Below, piece by piece: positions 28,149 to 33,732 of a stretch of DNA of 64,000 nt; position 1 is the first letter of the stretch; the number at the start of each line of letters is the position of its first letter. The stretch is from Sphingobacteriales bacterium 50-39 (lineage in GTDB: Bacteria > Bacteroidota > Bacteroidia > Chitinophagales > Chitinophagaceae). The notes under the pieces were generated by a model that saw nothing but the letters and a program-made list of their open reading frames with translations, was not told the origin of the DNA and made no database searches. The DNA is taken from assembly GCA_001898505.1 (NCBI GenBank), contig MKTZ01000026.1:186001-250000 (forward strand), read 5' to 3'. Both the position numbers and the translations under genes were made by a program.

Positions 28149-28170
28149 CACAATTTTTTCCTATCAAAAA

Positions 28171-28194
28171 GGCCAGCATCAGCTGGCCTTTTTT
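28171..28194 (+). terminator. Rho-independent terminator
   Basis: GGCCAGC (28171-28177), a 4-base loop, GCTGGCC (28182-28188), then TTTTTT. It closes the lipoprotein gene 22 bases after its stop and lies only 15 bases before the kinase ATG. Confidence 0.9.
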
Positions 28195-28209: not shown

Positions 28210-29610
28210 ATGGAAAACGTCAGCGCAGAATGGCTTGGCTCCCTCGAGGCCTTGAAAGAAGTCCCATTAGAACAGCTGCAGTGGATGATCGAAAACAGCA
28301 CTGTCACCGAAATCCCGGACGGAGATTTTATCTTCCGATCAGGCGAGCCCATGAAAGGCACGCATGTCCTGCTGGAAGGAAGGATAAAGATGTATCTCGT
28401 GCAGAACAATGAGATGCGGGACGTCCTCTACATAGAAAAGGACGCCATCTTCGGCTATCTCCCCTTCTCCCGTGGACTGGTAGCCAAGGCAATGGGACAG
28501 GCTCTCGGCAATACCCGCGTCATGACCCTGCCAATGGACAAGACGAGGGAGATGATCGCCAAACATTTCGAGCTGACACAGGCGCTGGTGCATATCATGA
28601 CTACCCGGGTACGGAACTTCACCGCCTATCAGCAGCAGAATGAAAAAATGATGGCCCTCGGAAAACTGTCAGCGGGCCTCGCACATGAGCTGAACAACCC
28701 CGCCGCTGCCATCGTAAGAGGCTCTTCCTCGCTAATACAGCATCTTCAGCTGGAACCCACCTCCTTTAAAGAGGTCATGGCCATCCGGATGGAAGAAAAA
28801 GAAGTGGACATCGTAACAAAGAAGCTGTTTGAAATATTGAACAGAGGCGAAAGACCCAAACTGACGCTTATCCAACGCACCGAAAAAGAAGATGCCGTAA
28901 GGGACTGGCTGGATGACCATCATGTAATCAACAGCGACGAGGTAGCGGAGAACTTTGTGGATTATGCCTTTACCTGCGAGGACATGGAATCTTTTAAGGA
29001 ACATATCCCCGAAAAATACCTCTCACCCGTCTTTAACTGGATCAATACCAACCTGGTGACGGAAAGAATGGTGATGGATATACAGAACTCCTCACAGAGG
29101 ATCTCAGACCTCGTGAAATCCATCAAAAGCTTTACCCATATGGATCAGGGTAAAGGAAAGGATTATACGGATATTCACGAAGGTCTCCGCAATACCCTCG
29201 TTATCCTTCAGCATAAGATAAAAAAAGGGAATATCACAGTGACAGAACAGTACGATGACACCCTGCCAAAAGTTAAGGCCATGGTAGGAGAATTGAACCA
29301 GGTATGGACTAACCTGATCGACAATGCCCTGGATGCCATGGAAGTAAATAAGAAAGGGCAGCTGACCATCCACACCCGACGGGACAGGGAGTTTGTGGAA
29401 GTGACGATCACAGATGATGGACCGGGTATACCTGACGAGATAAAATCACAGATATTCGACCCCTTCTTTACCACCAAAGAGATTGGAAAGGGCACGGGAT
29501 TGGGACTTGATGTAGTCATGCGGATCGTACAGCAGCATCGTGGTTCCGTCAAGGTCAACTCCCGGCCAGGGCGGACGGACTTCATCGTCTGCTTCCTCAT
29601 AGACGGTTAG
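28210..29610 (+). CDS. Cyclic-nucleotide-binding-domain histidine kinase
   Basis: 466 residues, no membrane segment, so cytoplasmic. Residues about 15-135 are a CRP-type nucleotide-binding domain (IPDGDFIFRSGEPMKGTHVLLEGRIKMY), but the phosphate-binding cassette is not canonical, so the ligand may differ from cAMP. The H-box KLSAGLAHELNNP places the phospho-accepting His at 159. The ATPase has N-box NLIDNALDAM (368-377), DDGPGIPDE (402-410) and FFTTKEIGKGTGLGL (419-433). Between the H-box and the N-box lie about 210 residues, roughly 100 more than usual, so an extra charged helical insert splits the dimerisation region. The response-regulator fusion protein starts 69 bases downstream and is its likely partner. 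Confidence 0.88.
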   Translation: MENVSAEWLGSLEALKEVPLEQLQWMIENSTVTEIPDGDFIFRSGEPMKGTHVLLEGRIKMYLVQNNEMRDVLYIEKDAIFGYLPFSRGLVAKAMGQALGNTRVMTLPMDKTREMIAKHFELTQALVHIMTTRVRNFTAYQQQNEKMMALGKLSAGLAHELNNPAAAIVRGSSSLIQHLQLEPTSFKEVMAIRMEEKEVDIVTKKLFEILNRGERPKLTLIQRTEKEDAVRDWLDDHHVINSDEVAENFVDYAFTCEDMESFKEHIPEKYLSPVFNWINTNLVTERMVMDIQNSSQRISDLVKSIKSFTHMDQGKGKDYTDIHEGLRNTLVILQHKIKKGNITVTEQYDDTLPKVKAMVGELNQVWTNLIDNALDAMEVNKKGQLTIHTRRDREFVEVTITDDGPGIPDEIKSQIFDPFFTTKEIGKGTGLGLDVVMRIVQQHRGSVKVNSRPGRTDFIVCFLIDG

Positions 29611-29679
29611 TTATCCTTGACAAACGGCAGTCGGCCGGAAGCATTATTAATTTAAATTGCAGCTCAACAGACCCATTTT

Positions 29680-31341
29680 ATGAACCAACCGATCATTTTT
29701 TCCATCGACGATGACGCACAGGTCCTACGCGCTATCGCGCGTGACCTTAGAAGCCATTATCGCAATGATTACAGGATATTGAGCACCACTTCAGCCAGGG
29801 AAGCGCTGGATAGTCTGTTGGACCTGAAGAATAAATCCGAAACAGTGGCGCTGATCATTTCGGATCAGCGCATGCCGGAAATGGAAGGAGTGGATTTTTT
29901 CAAACATGCCATCGAATACTTTCCGGACGCCAAACGTGTGCTGTTAACAGCCTACTCCGATACAGATGCCGCCATCCGGGCCATCAACGATATTCAGCTG
30001 GATTACTATCTGATGAAACCCTGGGATCCCCCGGAGGACAGATTATATCCTGTTATCAATGGATTGCTGGAGGACTGGCAAAGCACGTACCGGCCGGCCT
30101 TTAAAGGGATCAAGGTCCTTGGCTATCAATTCTCGCCCAAGTCACACGACATAAAAGAATTCCTTTCAGGGAACCTGGTCCCTTATCAATGGCTGGATGT
30201 GGAAAGCAACGAGGAAGGCGGGCATCTGATGAAGCTGAATAATATACTTTCAAAGGATCTTCCCGCAATGTTCCTGGAAGATGGCAGCTTTCTTACTTCG
30301 CCGTCTATTCCGGTGGTAGCTGAGAAGATAGGCCTGACTCCATCTATCAGGAACAATATGTACGACGTGGTGATCATTGGCGCGGGTCCGGCAGGTCTTG
30401 CTGCATCCGTATACGGCGCCTCTGAAGGGCTAAAGACCCTGCTCGTCGAACGTCATTCCCCCGGCGGACAGGCAGGGACCAGCTCGAGGATCGAAAACTA
30501 TTTAGGCTTTCCCACAGGACTCAGCGGCGCGGAGCTTACCCGGCGGGCCGTTACCCAGGCCAGCCGTCTGGGAGCAGAGCTTTTTTGCCCCGGATATGTA
30601 AAGGACATCCGGCAGAAGGACGGATATAAAAAAGTAATTTTGGATAACGATCAATGTATCGACACCCATTCCATCGTGATCACTACCGGCGTCGATTATC
30701 GAAAGCTGGATACAAGGGGCGTGGCGGATTTTACAGGGGCCGGTATTTATTATGGGGCCGCCATGACCGAAGCCGCGGCCTTCCGGGATAAAGAGGTCTA
30801 TGTCGTAGGCGGGGGTAATTCTGCGGGACAGGCAGCCATGTATCTCTCCAAGTTTGCCAAAAATGTGTATGTCCTTATCCGCAAAAGCGACCTTATCAGC
30901 ACGATGTCCGCCTATCTCATTGACCAGTTGGCCACGCGCCCTAATGTCCAGGTGATGGGAAAGAAAGAGATCAGCGCGGCCTCGGGCAATGGGCGACTGG
31001 AGGAGCTGACCATCGAGGATGTCGATTCACGGACTTCGGAGACACGCCGGGCGGATGCGCTCTTTATTTTTATCGGGGCCCGTCCATATACAGACTGGAT
31101 CGGCCTGGATATCATAAAAGATGAAAAGGGATTCCTGGAGACGGGCCGTGACCTGAAGACCTATGCCGATTTTAGCAAAATATGGAAGCAGGACCGGGAC
31201 CCCTATTTGTTGGAGACAAGCTGTCCCGGCATTTTTGCGGCAGGAGATGTACGGGCAGGAGCGATGAATCGCGTGGCTTCTGCCGTCGGCGAAGGGTCAA
31301 TGGCCATCAGCTTTGTCCATAAATACCTTGCAGAAGTATAA
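29680..31341 (+). CDS. Response regulator fused to thioredoxin-reductase-like flavoprotein lacking CxxC
   Basis: 553 residues. Residues 1-130 are a receiver domain: acidic D10-D12, phospho-acceptor D62 in IISDQRMP, T90 and K113. Residues about 140-220 resemble a glutaredoxin/thioredoxin fold without a CxxC (IKVLGYQFSPKSHDIKEFL). Residues 227-553 follow the TrxB layout: FAD motif GAGPAGLAAS (234-243), PGGQAGTSSRIENYLGFP, NADPH motif VVGGGNSAGQAAMYL (375-389) and second FAD motif GIFAAGDVR (517-525). Where TrxB has CATC, this protein has YYGAAMTEA (357-365), with no cysteine pair. It is therefore not a standard thioredoxin reductase. Phosphorylation by the adjacent kinase could gate a flavin-dependent redox activity. 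Such fusions are known as an annotated family, but I know of no established function. Confidence 0.9.
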   Translation: MNQPIIFSIDDDAQVLRAIARDLRSHYRNDYRILSTTSAREALDSLLDLKNKSETVALIISDQRMPEMEGVDFFKHAIEYFPDAKRVLLTAYSDTDAAIRAINDIQLDYYLMKPWDPPEDRLYPVINGLLEDWQSTYRPAFKGIKVLGYQFSPKSHDIKEFLSGNLVPYQWLDVESNEEGGHLMKLNNILSKDLPAMFLEDGSFLTSPSIPVVAEKIGLTPSIRNNMYDVVIIGAGPAGLAASVYGASEGLKTLLVERHSPGGQAGTSSRIENYLGFPTGLSGAELTRRAVTQASRLGAELFCPGYVKDIRQKDGYKKVILDNDQCIDTHSIVITTGVDYRKLDTRGVADFTGAGIYYGAAMTEAAAFRDKEVYVVGGGNSAGQAAMYLSKFAKNVYVLIRKSDLISTMSAYLIDQLATRPNVQVMGKKEISAASGNGRLEELTIEDVDSRTSETRRADALFIFIGARPYTDWIGLDIIKDEKGFLETGRDLKTYADFSKIWKQDRDPYLLETSCPGIFAAGDVRAGAMNRVASAVGEGSMAISFVHKYLAEV

Positions 31342-31351
31342 AACTTATTAT

Positions 31352-31624
31352 ATGCACACCGATCCATCCTGTTCACATATAGAGGCCATCGAAAAATTAA
31401 AGAAGTCGAAAGACTATGTCTGTGAAGAATGTATAAAGACGGGCGACGAATGGGTGCACCTCCGGGTCTGCCAGACCTGCGGCGCTACCCTATGCTGCGA
31501 TGACTCGCCCAACAGGCATATGACCAGACACAACCATCAGACTCACCACCCCGTCATCACCTCGGCCCAACCGGGTGAACAATGGCTCTGGTGTTACAAA
31601 GACCGCATTTTCGCTGAGTATTAA
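31352..31624 (+). CDS. UBP-type zinc finger protein
   Basis: 90 residues from the ATG at 31352, 10 bases after the preceding stop; an in-frame ATG at 31313 would overlap that gene. It is essentially one domain. Candidate zinc ligands are C7, H9, C24, C27, C40, C43, C48/C49 and the histidines of RHMTRHNHQTHHP (residues 55-67). The WVHLRVCQTCG core (34-44) and WLWCYKD at the C-terminus complete the ZnF-UBP pattern. In eukaryotes (USP5, HDAC6) this domain binds the free C-terminal Gly-Gly of ubiquitin. Bacteria generally lack ubiquitin, so the ligand here may be the C-terminal tail of another protein. The tight spacing to the flavoprotein suggests the three genes work together. Confidence 0.88.
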   Translation: MHTDPSCSHIEAIEKLKKSKDYVCEECIKTGDEWVHLRVCQTCGATLCCDDSPNRHMTRHNHQTHHPVITSAQPGEQWLWCYKDRIFAEY

Positions 31625-31860: not shown

Positions 31861-31904
31861 TCATCCTGTATACAAATTCCGTATCTTCGCGCAATTCTTT
31901 GGAA

Positions 31905-33185
31905 ATGAAGATACTCATTCAGCAGGCTACTATCATCGACCGCCTGTCGCCTCACAACGGACAGCATCGGGATATACTCATAGAAAATGGCCGGATAAAG
32001 GCCATTGCACAGCACTTGCAGGCTACTGCCGACAAGGTGATCCATCATCCCGGACTGCATGTCTCTCCAGGCTGGGTAGACATATTTTCCCATTTCTGCG
32101 ATCCCGGCTATGAATATAAGGAGACCCTCGAGACTGGAGCCAATGCCGCAGCGGCAGGAGGATTCACAGATGTCTTTGTCATACCCAATACCAAACCCGT
32201 CGTCGACAGCAAGTCTCAGGTAGAATATATCCGGAGCCGGTCGGCCCTGCTCCCCGTGAACATACGACCCATCGGAGCCCTGACAAAGGGATTGGAGGGC
32301 AAAGATCTGGCCGAGATGTACGACATGCGTCACAGCGGCGCCGTCGCCTTTAGCGATGGTACCAGCCCTGTACAGTCGGCAGGTCTGTTACTGAAAGGAC
32401 TGCAATATGTAAAGGCATTCGCGGGAGTGGTGATCCAGGTGCCGGACGACCGTACCGTAGGGGCCAATGGGCTGATGAACGAAGGCATCGTCTCCACCCG
32501 GCTCGGCCTGCCCGGCAAACCCATGATGGCCGAAGAGCTGATCATCGCCCGGGACATCAAGCTGGCCCGGTATACGGATTCCCGTCTGCACTTCACAGGA
32601 GTCAGCTCTCCCCGTGGACTGGAATATATACGAAGGGCAAAAGAGGGGGGTCTTGCTGTCACCTGTTCGGTGACACCTTATCATCTCTTTTTCACCGATG
32701 CCCACCTTGTCAATTACGACACCAACCTGAAGGTCTTCCCCCCCCTGCGGGACGAGGCTTCGGTAACGGCGCTGAAACAATCTGTCCTGGATGGAACGAT
32801 AGATTGTGTGGCCTCGCATCACCTGCCCCATGAATACGACAGCAAGACCATAGAGTTTGAATATGCCAAGGCCGGAATGACAGGACTGGATATAGCCTAT
32901 GCCGCGCTGCGGACGGCGATCCCGGAGCTGAGGGTCGAACGGACAGTGGATCTGTTATCCTACTCGCCAAGGAATATCTTTGGGATGGAGCAGCCATCCA
33001 TCATAGAAGGCGGGGCAGCTTGTCTCAGCCTGTTCGATCCCGCAGGGACGACAAAAGTGGAGGAAGGTATGCTGCGGTCAAAGTCGAAGAACACGGCTTT
33101 CCTTGGTCAGACCCTCAAAGGACGTGCGCTGGGTATCCTCAACGGAGAGAGGCTGGTATGGAGTGATCTCTCACACCAATCATAA
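31905..33185 (+). CDS. Dihydroorotase-like amidohydrolase, probably catalytically dead
   Basis: 426 residues from the ATG at 31905; a TTG 6 bases earlier also keeps the frame. The fold is clearly dihydroorotase class I: GWVDIFSHFCDPGYEYKETL near 57, AAAAGGFTDVFVIPNTKP near 81, GALTKGLEGKDLAEM near 124, GAVAFSDG near 145 and VFPPLRDE near 277. Key residues are changed. The HxH metal pair of the DxHxHxR motif reads F61-S-H63 with Cys for the substrate Arg (C65), the His of the HVS motif is Gly (G232), and the catalytic Asp of the TDHAPH motif is His (H305 in SHHLPHE). It is therefore likely a non-catalytic homologue. I would not infer pyrimidine synthesis from this gene. It heads a plus-strand run with DUF4199 and glycosyltransferase genes. 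Confidence 0.85.
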   Translation: MKILIQQATIIDRLSPHNGQHRDILIENGRIKAIAQHLQATADKVIHHPGLHVSPGWVDIFSHFCDPGYEYKETLETGANAAAAGGFTDVFVIPNTKPVVDSKSQVEYIRSRSALLPVNIRPIGALTKGLEGKDLAEMYDMRHSGAVAFSDGTSPVQSAGLLLKGLQYVKAFAGVVIQVPDDRTVGANGLMNEGIVSTRLGLPGKPMMAEELIIARDIKLARYTDSRLHFTGVSSPRGLEYIRRAKEGGLAVTCSVTPYHLFFTDAHLVNYDTNLKVFPPLRDEASVTALKQSVLDGTIDCVASHHLPHEYDSKTIEFEYAKAGMTGLDIAYAALRTAIPELRVERTVDLLSYSPRNIFGMEQPSIIEGGAACLSLFDPAGTTKVEEGMLRSKSKNTAFLGQTLKGRALGILNGERLVWSDLSHQS

Positions 33186-33192
33186 TTTTAAT

Positions 33193-33732
33193 ATGAAATC
33201 CGGAAAAATATCTATCGCAGTCACCTGCGGATTGATCGCAGGTCTGGCCCTGATCCTCCTTATAACAATATTGTATCTTGGGGGGATTGATGCGTTCATA
33301 GGATATAGCTGGTTTATCTGGCTTGTTCTTATCAGCGCCGCCATTGTCGCCCCTGTAATGGAAAAAAAGGCCCAGGCAGGATACCTGGAATTCAGAGAGG
33401 CTCTGAAAGCCGCCTTTCTCGTCTTTGTCATCGCCATGTTCCTGCAAAGTATCTTTTCCTGGATCCTGATGAACTTCATCGATCAAGGGTTCCGGGATGC
33501 TGTGGAGCGCGCAACACTCGAGAAGGCCGAGAAGTTCATGCAGAGCATAAAGATGGACCAGGACCTCATTGACAAAACACTGGATGAACAGCGGGGAAAG
33601 AACCAATATGCCCTTCCCAAGATCCTGACCGGGCTTTGCGTTTCCTATATTTTCTGTTTCCTGATCTCTCTGCTGATCGCAGCTATTGTAAAAAAGAAAA
33701 AACCGGAATTCCACGACACGGCATTTAAATAA
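33193..33732 (+). CDS. DUF4199 family membrane protein
   Basis: 179 residues starting MKSGKISIAVT; the ATG at 33193 is 7 bases after the preceding stop, and an in-frame upstream ATG at 33103 would overlap it by 83 bases. Four hydrophobic helices: about 9-29, 35-50, 70-95 and 150-170. A conserved helix pair around FREALKAAFLVFVIAMFLQ and a charged loop of about 50 residues (DAVERATLEKAEKFM) sit before the last helix. This matches DUF4199, a Bacteroidota inner-membrane family with no known role that is often encoded between a dihydroorotase-like gene and a GT2 gene, as here. Confidence 0.8.
   Translation: MKSGKISIAVTCGLIAGLALILLITILYLGGIDAFIGYSWFIWLVLISAAIVAPVMEKKAQAGYLEFREALKAAFLVFVIAMFLQSIFSWILMNFIDQGFRDAVERATLEKAEKFMQSIKMDQDLIDKTLDEQRGKNQYALPKILTGLCVSYIFCFLISLLIAAIVKKKKPEFHDTAFK

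Follow-up and report, generated by a model that had tools for sequence, protein, structure and literature searches.

Bacterial proteins with a ubiquitin-type zinc finger (ZnF-UBP) reportedly form part of a novel cyclic nucleotide-dependent redox signalling system, as predicted from genome context (Burroughs, Iyer and Aravind 2011, Mol Biosyst). Here we describe a three-gene cluster in a 64,000-nucleotide stretch (the window) of contig MKTZ01000026.1 from Sphingobacteriales bacterium 50-39. The cluster encodes a soluble histidine kinase (HK) with a cyclic nucleotide-binding domain (CNBD), a flavoprotein composed of receiver, glutaredoxin-like and TrxB-like (thioredoxin reductase-like) parts, and a ZnF-UBP protein. 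We consider it probable that these genes form a two-component redox switch with no transcriptional output and with ZnF-UBP docking, and that antiporters are among its targets in relatives. As reported of the 2011 system, a bacterial ZF-UBP is linked to a flavin/redox protein and a cyclic-nucleotide-binding domain is present (Pfam cNMP_binding, 1.2e-9, in the kinase); here, however, the CNBD is carried by the kinase and would act through the receiver. The cluster can accordingly be seen as a two-component version of a system whose kind had been predicted.

The 2011 paper stands as a reference entry in PMC4506424, and a 2008 survey lists bacterial zf-UBP mini-proteins, whose members are called putative Zn-finger or hypothetical proteins (PMC2602986). 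In the openly licensed literature, a scope too narrow for a claim of absence from print, no paper was evidently about this system. Rhizobium and Paraburkholderia plasmids carry a "FAD-dependent oxidoreductase" beside a "UBP-type zinc finger domain-containing protein", a likeness by annotation alone, but these were annotated as single proteins with no system or function. The precedents for flavoprotein or phosphorelay control of antiporters come from other proteins. Full activity of KefC requires the flavoprotein KefF, and in the KefF-KefC and KefG-KefB pairs a K+/H+ antiporter with a KTN domain is regulated under electrophile stress by a soluble flavin enzyme (PMC10224563). In one family of relatives (f21), the module described here has a Kef-like CPA2 gene as its neighbour. 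However, KefF is a quinone reductase of about 20 kDa, the Kef system as described in that source is without kinase, receiver or ZnF-UBP, and the window's genome is without a linked antiporter. Additionally, the phosphorelay protein PtsN, when unphosphorylated, binds and inhibits the CPA1 antiporter YcgO (PMC11808508).

Pairing of the kinase with the receiver

Three same-strand open reading frames (ORFs) lie head to tail in the order kinase, receiver-flavoprotein and ZnF-UBP protein, with intergenic gaps of 69 bases (29611-29679) and 10 bases (31342-31351). The features are as follows.

28210..29610, + strand: soluble HK, 466 amino acids, ATG at 28210 (Pfam, alignment, model)
Within the HK, + strand: CNBD, residues 34-119; dimerization and histidine phosphotransfer (DHp) domain with H159 (codon 28684-28686); helical insertion, residues ~183-265; HATPase, residues 362-461 (Pfam, alignment, model)
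29680..31341, + strand: receiver / glutaredoxin-like / TrxB-like flavoprotein, 553 amino acids, ATG at 29680 (Pfam, alignment, model)
29695..30033, + strand: receiver domain, residues 6-118, phospho-acceptor D62 (codon 29863-29865) (Pfam; DQRMP motif)
30109..30327, + strand: glutaredoxin-like domain, residues 144-216, SPKS at the CxxC position (profile and model)
30355..31335, + strand: TrxB-like FAD/NAD(P)H domain, residues 226-552, GAGPAG at 234 and GGGNSA at 377 (Pfam, motifs)
30754-30774, + strand: GAAMTEA replacing the active-site disulfide, residues 359-365 (alignment)
31352..31624, + strand: ZnF-UBP protein, 90 amino acids, ATG at 31352, zf-UBP domain at residues 24-85 (Pfam)
28166..28193, + strand: terminator-like 12-bp stem and T run, between the upstream gene and the cluster (sequence scan)

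The zinc-finger start at ATG 31352 was chosen in this analysis; the mechanical ORF list has TTG 31313. ORFs, Pfam and the terminator scan agreed with the first-pass annotation of this DNA, which had described the three genes with their gaps, the CRP-like sensor of the kinase, the receiver-TrxB fusion, the UBP finger and the terminator. The glutaredoxin-like middle domain, the loss of redox cysteines and the antiporter links in relatives were absent from it. It had also claimed that the cluster lacks a DNA-binding output, and Pfam gave none of the three proteins a DNA-binding domain (E up to 0.01). From the spacing only, we infer that the three genes are co-transcribed.

In the kinase, Pfam HATPase_c was matched at 4.3e-24, and HisKA, which fell under its cut-off, covered only positions 2-20 of 66. 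H159 was invariant in 23/23 aligned HKs, as were AHE-NNP, N368/N372, D402xG404xG406 and GTGxGL in the same sequences, which provides the phospho-histidine and the ATP-binding boxes of a two-component kinase. The receiver was matched by Response_reg at 1e-13, and DQRMP with D62 was present in all 33 receiver fusions, window included. H159 and D62 are the putative phospho-sites that the first-pass annotation had named.

The pairing set comprised 167 stretches, namely 80 loci from a GTDB scan, sets of 15, 60 and 11 loci, and the window. After removal of identical TrxB cores, 81 deduplicated proteins were left, of which 51 were of receiver type (window included), 22 were of CNBD type and eight had neither N-terminal domain. 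A kinase was taken as linked when an HK-family member lay within 1.5 kb of the flavoprotein. On this definition, 48 of the 51 receiver types had a linked kinase, none of the 22 CNBD types did, and one of the eight with neither domain did (L049, whose receiver is a separate ORF). The receiver types with no kinase next to them were L057, L181 and L251, and for L057 and L251 a kinase was found elsewhere in the genome, with 58% and 43% identity across almost its whole length. The partnership of kinase and receiver-flavoprotein suggested earlier is thus supported as a conserved gene pair. The match to the kinase profile ran through the CNBD part in 47 of the 48 paired kinases, the exception being L249, which has PAS domains; the L244 kinase matched the profile and did not match Pfam cNMP_binding. 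The pairing was kept across several gene orders (kinase, flavoprotein, UBP; UBP, kinase, flavoprotein; UBP, flavoprotein, kinase in L211; divergent in L245) and was found in two phyla and several genera. No such HK adjoined the flavoprotein in a clade that has lost the receiver (L020, L087, L088, L112 and L253).

Kinase-to-receiver signalling is the best reading of these patterns. Because relatives fuse the CNBD directly to the flavoprotein, with no kinase adjoining, the phosphorelay looks like a second way to connect this kind of sensor with the flavoprotein output. The sensor could also change while the kinase-receiver pair stays, since L249 has PAS in place of the CNBD.

Three side observations concern these proteins. 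In L249 (4824-8374), the receiver-flavoprotein has next to it a kinase with PAS domains and no CNBD. In L049 (6271-7951), a Mucilaginibacter metagenome-assembled genome, one ORF encodes the receiver and another, which overlaps it, the TrxB-like part. In the window (28756-29004), about 80 residues of predicted helices stand between the two DHp helices (model residues 183-265, pTM 0.37); the naming of a fold for this insertion was dropped because of the low pTM of the model.

The canonical cNMP (cyclic nucleoside monophosphate) contact motif of a CNBD is G-E ... R. The cassette was GxLP[FY]SR in 32/32 HKs of the window and the loci of its phylum, so the usual cNMP-binding Glu, and with it the canonical set of contact residues, is absent from the window's HK branch. 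The same site in the CNBD-flavoproteins was G-E in 11/22 and G-D in 10/22 (E or D in 21/22), and the actinobacterial HKs L187, L206 and L211 retain a canonical-looking G-E ... P-R cassette. Because these cassettes are retained, a cyclic-nucleotide ligand is plausible for some CNBD members, the window's branch being without the canonical cassette. One class III cyclase is encoded in the window's genome.

Alternatively, the flavoprotein may itself sense NAD(P)H, quinones or electrophiles and signal back to the kinase or the finger, with the CNBD just tuning the response. The cofactor motifs retained without the disulfide would fit this, as would the missing Glu in the kinases of the window's branch, the PAS domains of L249 and a NamA-like old yellow enzyme (below cut-off) near UBP in L020. 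Nevertheless, receivers normally receive signals, the kinase tracks the receiver type, and the cassette of the L187, L206 and L211 kinases favours a CNBD that senses, so we regard a sensing flavoprotein as unlikely and retain kinase-to-receiver signalling.

The zinc finger

The finger was matched by Pfam zf-UBP at 2.1e-10, and its best solved relative was the bacterial 2ida, followed by HDAC6. It shares the domain family and the Cys/His pattern with the eukaryotic ZnF-UBP of HDAC6 and USP33: among 157 bacterial fingers, the zinc-ligand columns C7, H9, C24, C27, C40, C43, C48, C49, H56, H60 and H66 were 98-100% kept, and the C81 column was kept at 93%. R38, D50, S52 and W78 were also near-invariant. 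The bacterial fingers differ from the eukaryotic ones in their signature, W-x-H-L-R plus C-C-D-x-S, and in the replacement of the GR arginine, which in eukaryotic UBP fingers is thought to grip the C-terminal carboxylate of ubiquitin's tail. At the HDAC6 GR-arginine column, S was found in 67% and D in 16% of the 157 bacterial fingers (S or D in 83%), with a one-residue length difference nearby in the alignment.

These residues bear on a protein-tag device: the finger would recognise free C-termini, either on a tagged substrate or on the flavoprotein itself, and the flavoprotein would act on what is bound. The zf-UBP match is real, and the Cys/His columns and W78/Y82 are conserved, as such a device would have it, and the closest solved structures are 2ida and then HDAC6. 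However, the gripping arginine is replaced by S or D, with R38, D50 and S52 conserved instead. The C-terminal residues of the flavoprotein vary by clade (YLAEV, YLADSNL, YLEQS), and the window's flavoprotein ends in a helix, confidently modelled to the last residue. Because the GR arginine is replaced and the tails are clade-specific, ubiquitin-tail-like binding is not supported; the earlier suggestion that the finger recognises a free C-terminus is weakened, and we hold the tag device to be quite improbable. The finger may possibly bind a peptide in some other mode.

A flavoprotein without redox cysteines

Pfam Pyr_redox_2 was matched in the flavoprotein at 4.5e-34. Among the 81 TrxB cores, the FAD motif was present in 81 and the NAD(P) motif in 80, and judging from these motifs the flavoprotein should bind FAD and NAD(P)H. 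The CxxC of thioredoxin reductase was found in 0/81. In the alignment to the solved reductase 4zn0, the window's GAAMT stands opposite CAIC, and the score for the thioredoxin reductase family of NCBIfam (TIGR01292) missed the cut-off (232 vs 343.45 bits). Thus, the TrxB-like part shares the FAD/NAD(P)H fold with bacterial TrxB, with 24-32% identity to the listed solved thioredoxin reductases, but has no active-site disulfide and carries an added N-terminal receiver and glutaredoxin-like domain. With CxxC in 0/81, it fails the defining test of a thioredoxin reductase.

The middle domain resembles glutaredoxin in profile and fold. A profile of this domain from 26 relatives matched the mycobacterial glutaredoxin 2lqo at 3.6e-8, and the AlphaFold2 model (mean pLDDT 86.5) gave the order beta-alpha-beta-alpha-beta-beta-alpha, which is the thioredoxin-fold order. 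Pfam Glutaredoxin matched 12 of the 26 members at E up to 1, the best at 7.5e-5 and the window's member at just 0.11. The CxxC/CxxS active site was not found: only L065 and L078, of the 26 aligned, have a Cys at the site.

Normal thiol-disulfide exchange would seem impossible for this flavoprotein, because its TrxB-like part is without CxxC and its glutaredoxin-like part is without active-site cysteines. The first-pass annotation had proposed a flavin redox step; one of the thioredoxin type is not supported, given the absence of CxxC. The TrxB fold, the cofactor motifs and a glutaredoxin-like domain in cis might speak for a regulated thioredoxin or glutaredoxin reductase that serves thiol stress defence, but the absence of CxxC, the two lone members with a Cys at the glutaredoxin site and the missed cut-off make such a reductase very improbable.

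Separately, Thiobacillus L045 (7757-8270) has a 77-amino acid ORF that matches the TrxB-like domain, just 5' of UBP and an NhaA-DsbA fusion, and may be a flavoprotein remnant.

Linkage across genomes and the proposed switch

The cluster sits on contig C26 of a 7.9 Mb genome, whose nearest named relatives in the flavoprotein tree are Bacteroidota, and that genome gave a single match each for zf-UBP and for the flavoprotein's middle domain. UBP was found in 16 of 148 genomes of the window's phylum, its own included. Among the other 147, 22 had the combined glutaredoxin-like and TrxB-like protein, 15 had UBP and 13 had both (Fisher p 3e-11, kinship uncorrected). HK, receiver-flavoprotein and UBP occurred together in 10 of these 15 UBP genomes, and in an eleventh the UBP adjoins a receiver-less flavoprotein. 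The GTDB scan yielded at least 594 UBP relatives, of which the best 80 by similarity to the window were retained, some on short contigs. A flavoprotein of the family adjoins UBP in 42 of the best 80 loci (23 of receiver type, L049 counted; 14 of CNBD type; and five of neither, one cut by the contig start), the 77-amino acid fragment of L045 being left out of the tally; a kinase was present at 22 of the 23 receiver-type loci.

The Actinobacteria sample held 45 UBP-bearing genomes of 198, with 60 UBP sites, and its centre (G149) was picked for having UBP; 55 regions, covering 56 of the 60 sites, were fetched, and the flavoprotein was found in 11 of them. UBP was rarer in Pseudomonadota (6/200, centre included), where all five non-centre sites adjoin a CNBD-flavoprotein. 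On plasmids, an annotated FAD-dependent oxidoreductase adjoins UBP in two of the six records inspected, of 87 with a match. The neighbourhood search that had been proposed thus found the linkage conserved in further genera and in one more phylum. That the three genes lie together by chance or by synteny only, with no shared function, is scarcely credible; one could cite for it the many UBP genes with no adjoining flavoprotein, but it is contradicted by repeated linkage in several orders and phyla and by an HK-UBP fusion in L206.

Antiporter genes recur beside UBP in relatives. In Actinobacteria, a Na_H_Exchanger gene lay within 1.5 kb of UBP or was fused to it at no fewer than 13 of the 60 sites (4 fused), against 0.23 expected, the sites not being independent. 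In the window's phylum, Na_H_Exchanger adjoins or is fused to UBP in 11 of the 15 UBP genomes. In family f21, a Kef-like CPA2 gene is followed by UBP in 10/10 loci examined, with a DsbA-like gene between them in 6/10; two f21 genomes in which no UBP was found (L246 and L250) still have the flavoprotein and HK genes clustered with the Kef-like and DsbA-like ones. Fusions confirmed by Pfam were Na_H_Exchanger-UBP of CPA1 type without KTN (L167, L197, L200, L213), CPA2-KTN-UBP (P0001 from L028) and CNBD-HK-UBP (L206), all with the finger at the C-terminal end. Further CPA2-KTN-UBP fusions are apparent in L091 and L096 by sequence match only. The long ORFs around UBP in the GC-rich actinobacterial loci L183 and L207 were rejected as fusions, as they overlap other genes and Pfam (E up to 1e-5) matched no further domain in them. 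Other transporters near UBP are an NhaA with a DsbA-like domain directly 3' of it in Thiobacillus L045, another NhaA at about 2 kb in L195 and a Kup transporter that follows it in L019.

In the switch that we propose, the CNBD-like domain of the kinase would sense a ligand, and the kinase would autophosphorylate H159 and pass the phosphate to D62 of the receiver, as the motifs and the conserved pairing suggest. Phosphorylation of D62 would alter the activity or the shape of the attached flavoprotein, possibly with its flavin state. The ZnF-UBP protein would be the docking partner that brings the switch to its target, in keeping with its linkage and fusions. The likely targets in relatives would be CPA1 and CPA2/Kef-like antiporters, and NhaA on thinner evidence, and the system may bring ion balance and pH into line with redox or electrophile stress. 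The antiporter links and the HK fusion suggest redox or electrophile control of ion exchange, a step made reasonable by the KefF-KefC and PtsN-YcgO precedents.

A bolder version can be offered only tentatively, and we doubt it somewhat: a phylum-spanning system in which a cysteine-free pseudo-thioredoxin-reductase, under the control of a two-component pair or of a directly fused CNBD, would gate unrelated cation/proton antiporters (CPA1, CPA2 and perhaps NhaA) through ZnF-UBP, as a redox/electrophile-to-ion-balance pathway parallel to KefF/KefC and with no transcriptional output.

Several observations weigh against the proposed switch. No antiporter or other adjacent target gene was identified for the system in the window's genome, whose five Na_H_Exchanger (PF00999) hits all lie off contig C26. 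Of the 11 antiporter-linked UBP genomes in the phylum, 10 belong to f21, and most antiporter-adjoining UBP sites outside f21 have no flavoprotein next door, so links to antiporters and links to flavoproteins are there mostly found at separate loci. No flavoprotein of the family stood beside UBP in 38 of the best 80 loci, some on short contigs, or in 44 of the 55 actinobacterial regions. UBP is not essential to the kinase-flavoprotein pair, since the HK is beside the flavoprotein in seven of the nine genomes of the phylum that have the flavoprotein and in which UBP was not found. The count of 0 linked kinases among the 22 CNBD-type flavoproteins, which favours the pairing, is confined to the loci, the rest of those genomes not having been searched, and three of the 22 (L065, L078, L215) lie near the locus end. 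In the tree of the 81 TrxB cores, one change suffices for receiver versus CNBD, several long branches leaving parts unsure; the contrast of 48/51 with 0/22 is therefore one event kept across a deep clade and two phyla, not a set of independent trials.

A number of neighbourhoods were noted in passing. In the near relative L034 (8206-10148), the dihydroorotase-like and small membrane-protein genes that come after the cluster in the window (31899-33732) are, by eye, present at that place too, and because of these shared genes the neighbourhood seems old and vertically kept there. Actinobacterial L206 (6077-10655) combines a UBP and a receiver-flavoprotein with a CNBD-HK whose C-terminal end is a further UBP. 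Glyoxalase-superfamily and carboxylesterase-like genes lie 5' of the Kef-like gene in several f21 genomes (L023, 12559-13551; L026, 11268-11957), an arrangement that may resemble quinone-detoxification operons. On a Hymenobacter plasmid (L256, 5171-6261), a Crp/Fnr-type regulator is directly 5' of UBP, with quinone oxidoreductase, SDR and flavin-dependent oxidoreductase genes around. On a Paraburkholderia plasmid (L258, 4722-10623), UBP and a gene annotated as FAD-dependent oxidoreductase stand opposite Clp ATPase and Hsp20 genes, and an acid-resistance (HdeD) gene lies further on. Upstream of the window's cluster, the terminator stem, the longest in the scan, lies 17 bases past the upstream stop; the scan gave six terminator-like sites, and shuffled sequences gave 5.3 on average. 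Anti-phage defence was rejected as a role, none of the three proteins being matched in PADLOC (E up to 0.01).

With this analysis, three genes whose annotation had been vague can be read as a signalling pathway that is open to testing and occurs in several bacterial phyla. If the proposed switch is true, the output of a two-component system would be a disulfide-stripped flavoprotein, which is neither DNA binding nor second-messenger turnover. For the bacterial kin of ubiquitin readers there would be a specific candidate role, at the tails that antiporters and a kinase have in the cytosol, and this candidate role bears on what UBP fingers did outside the ubiquitin system.

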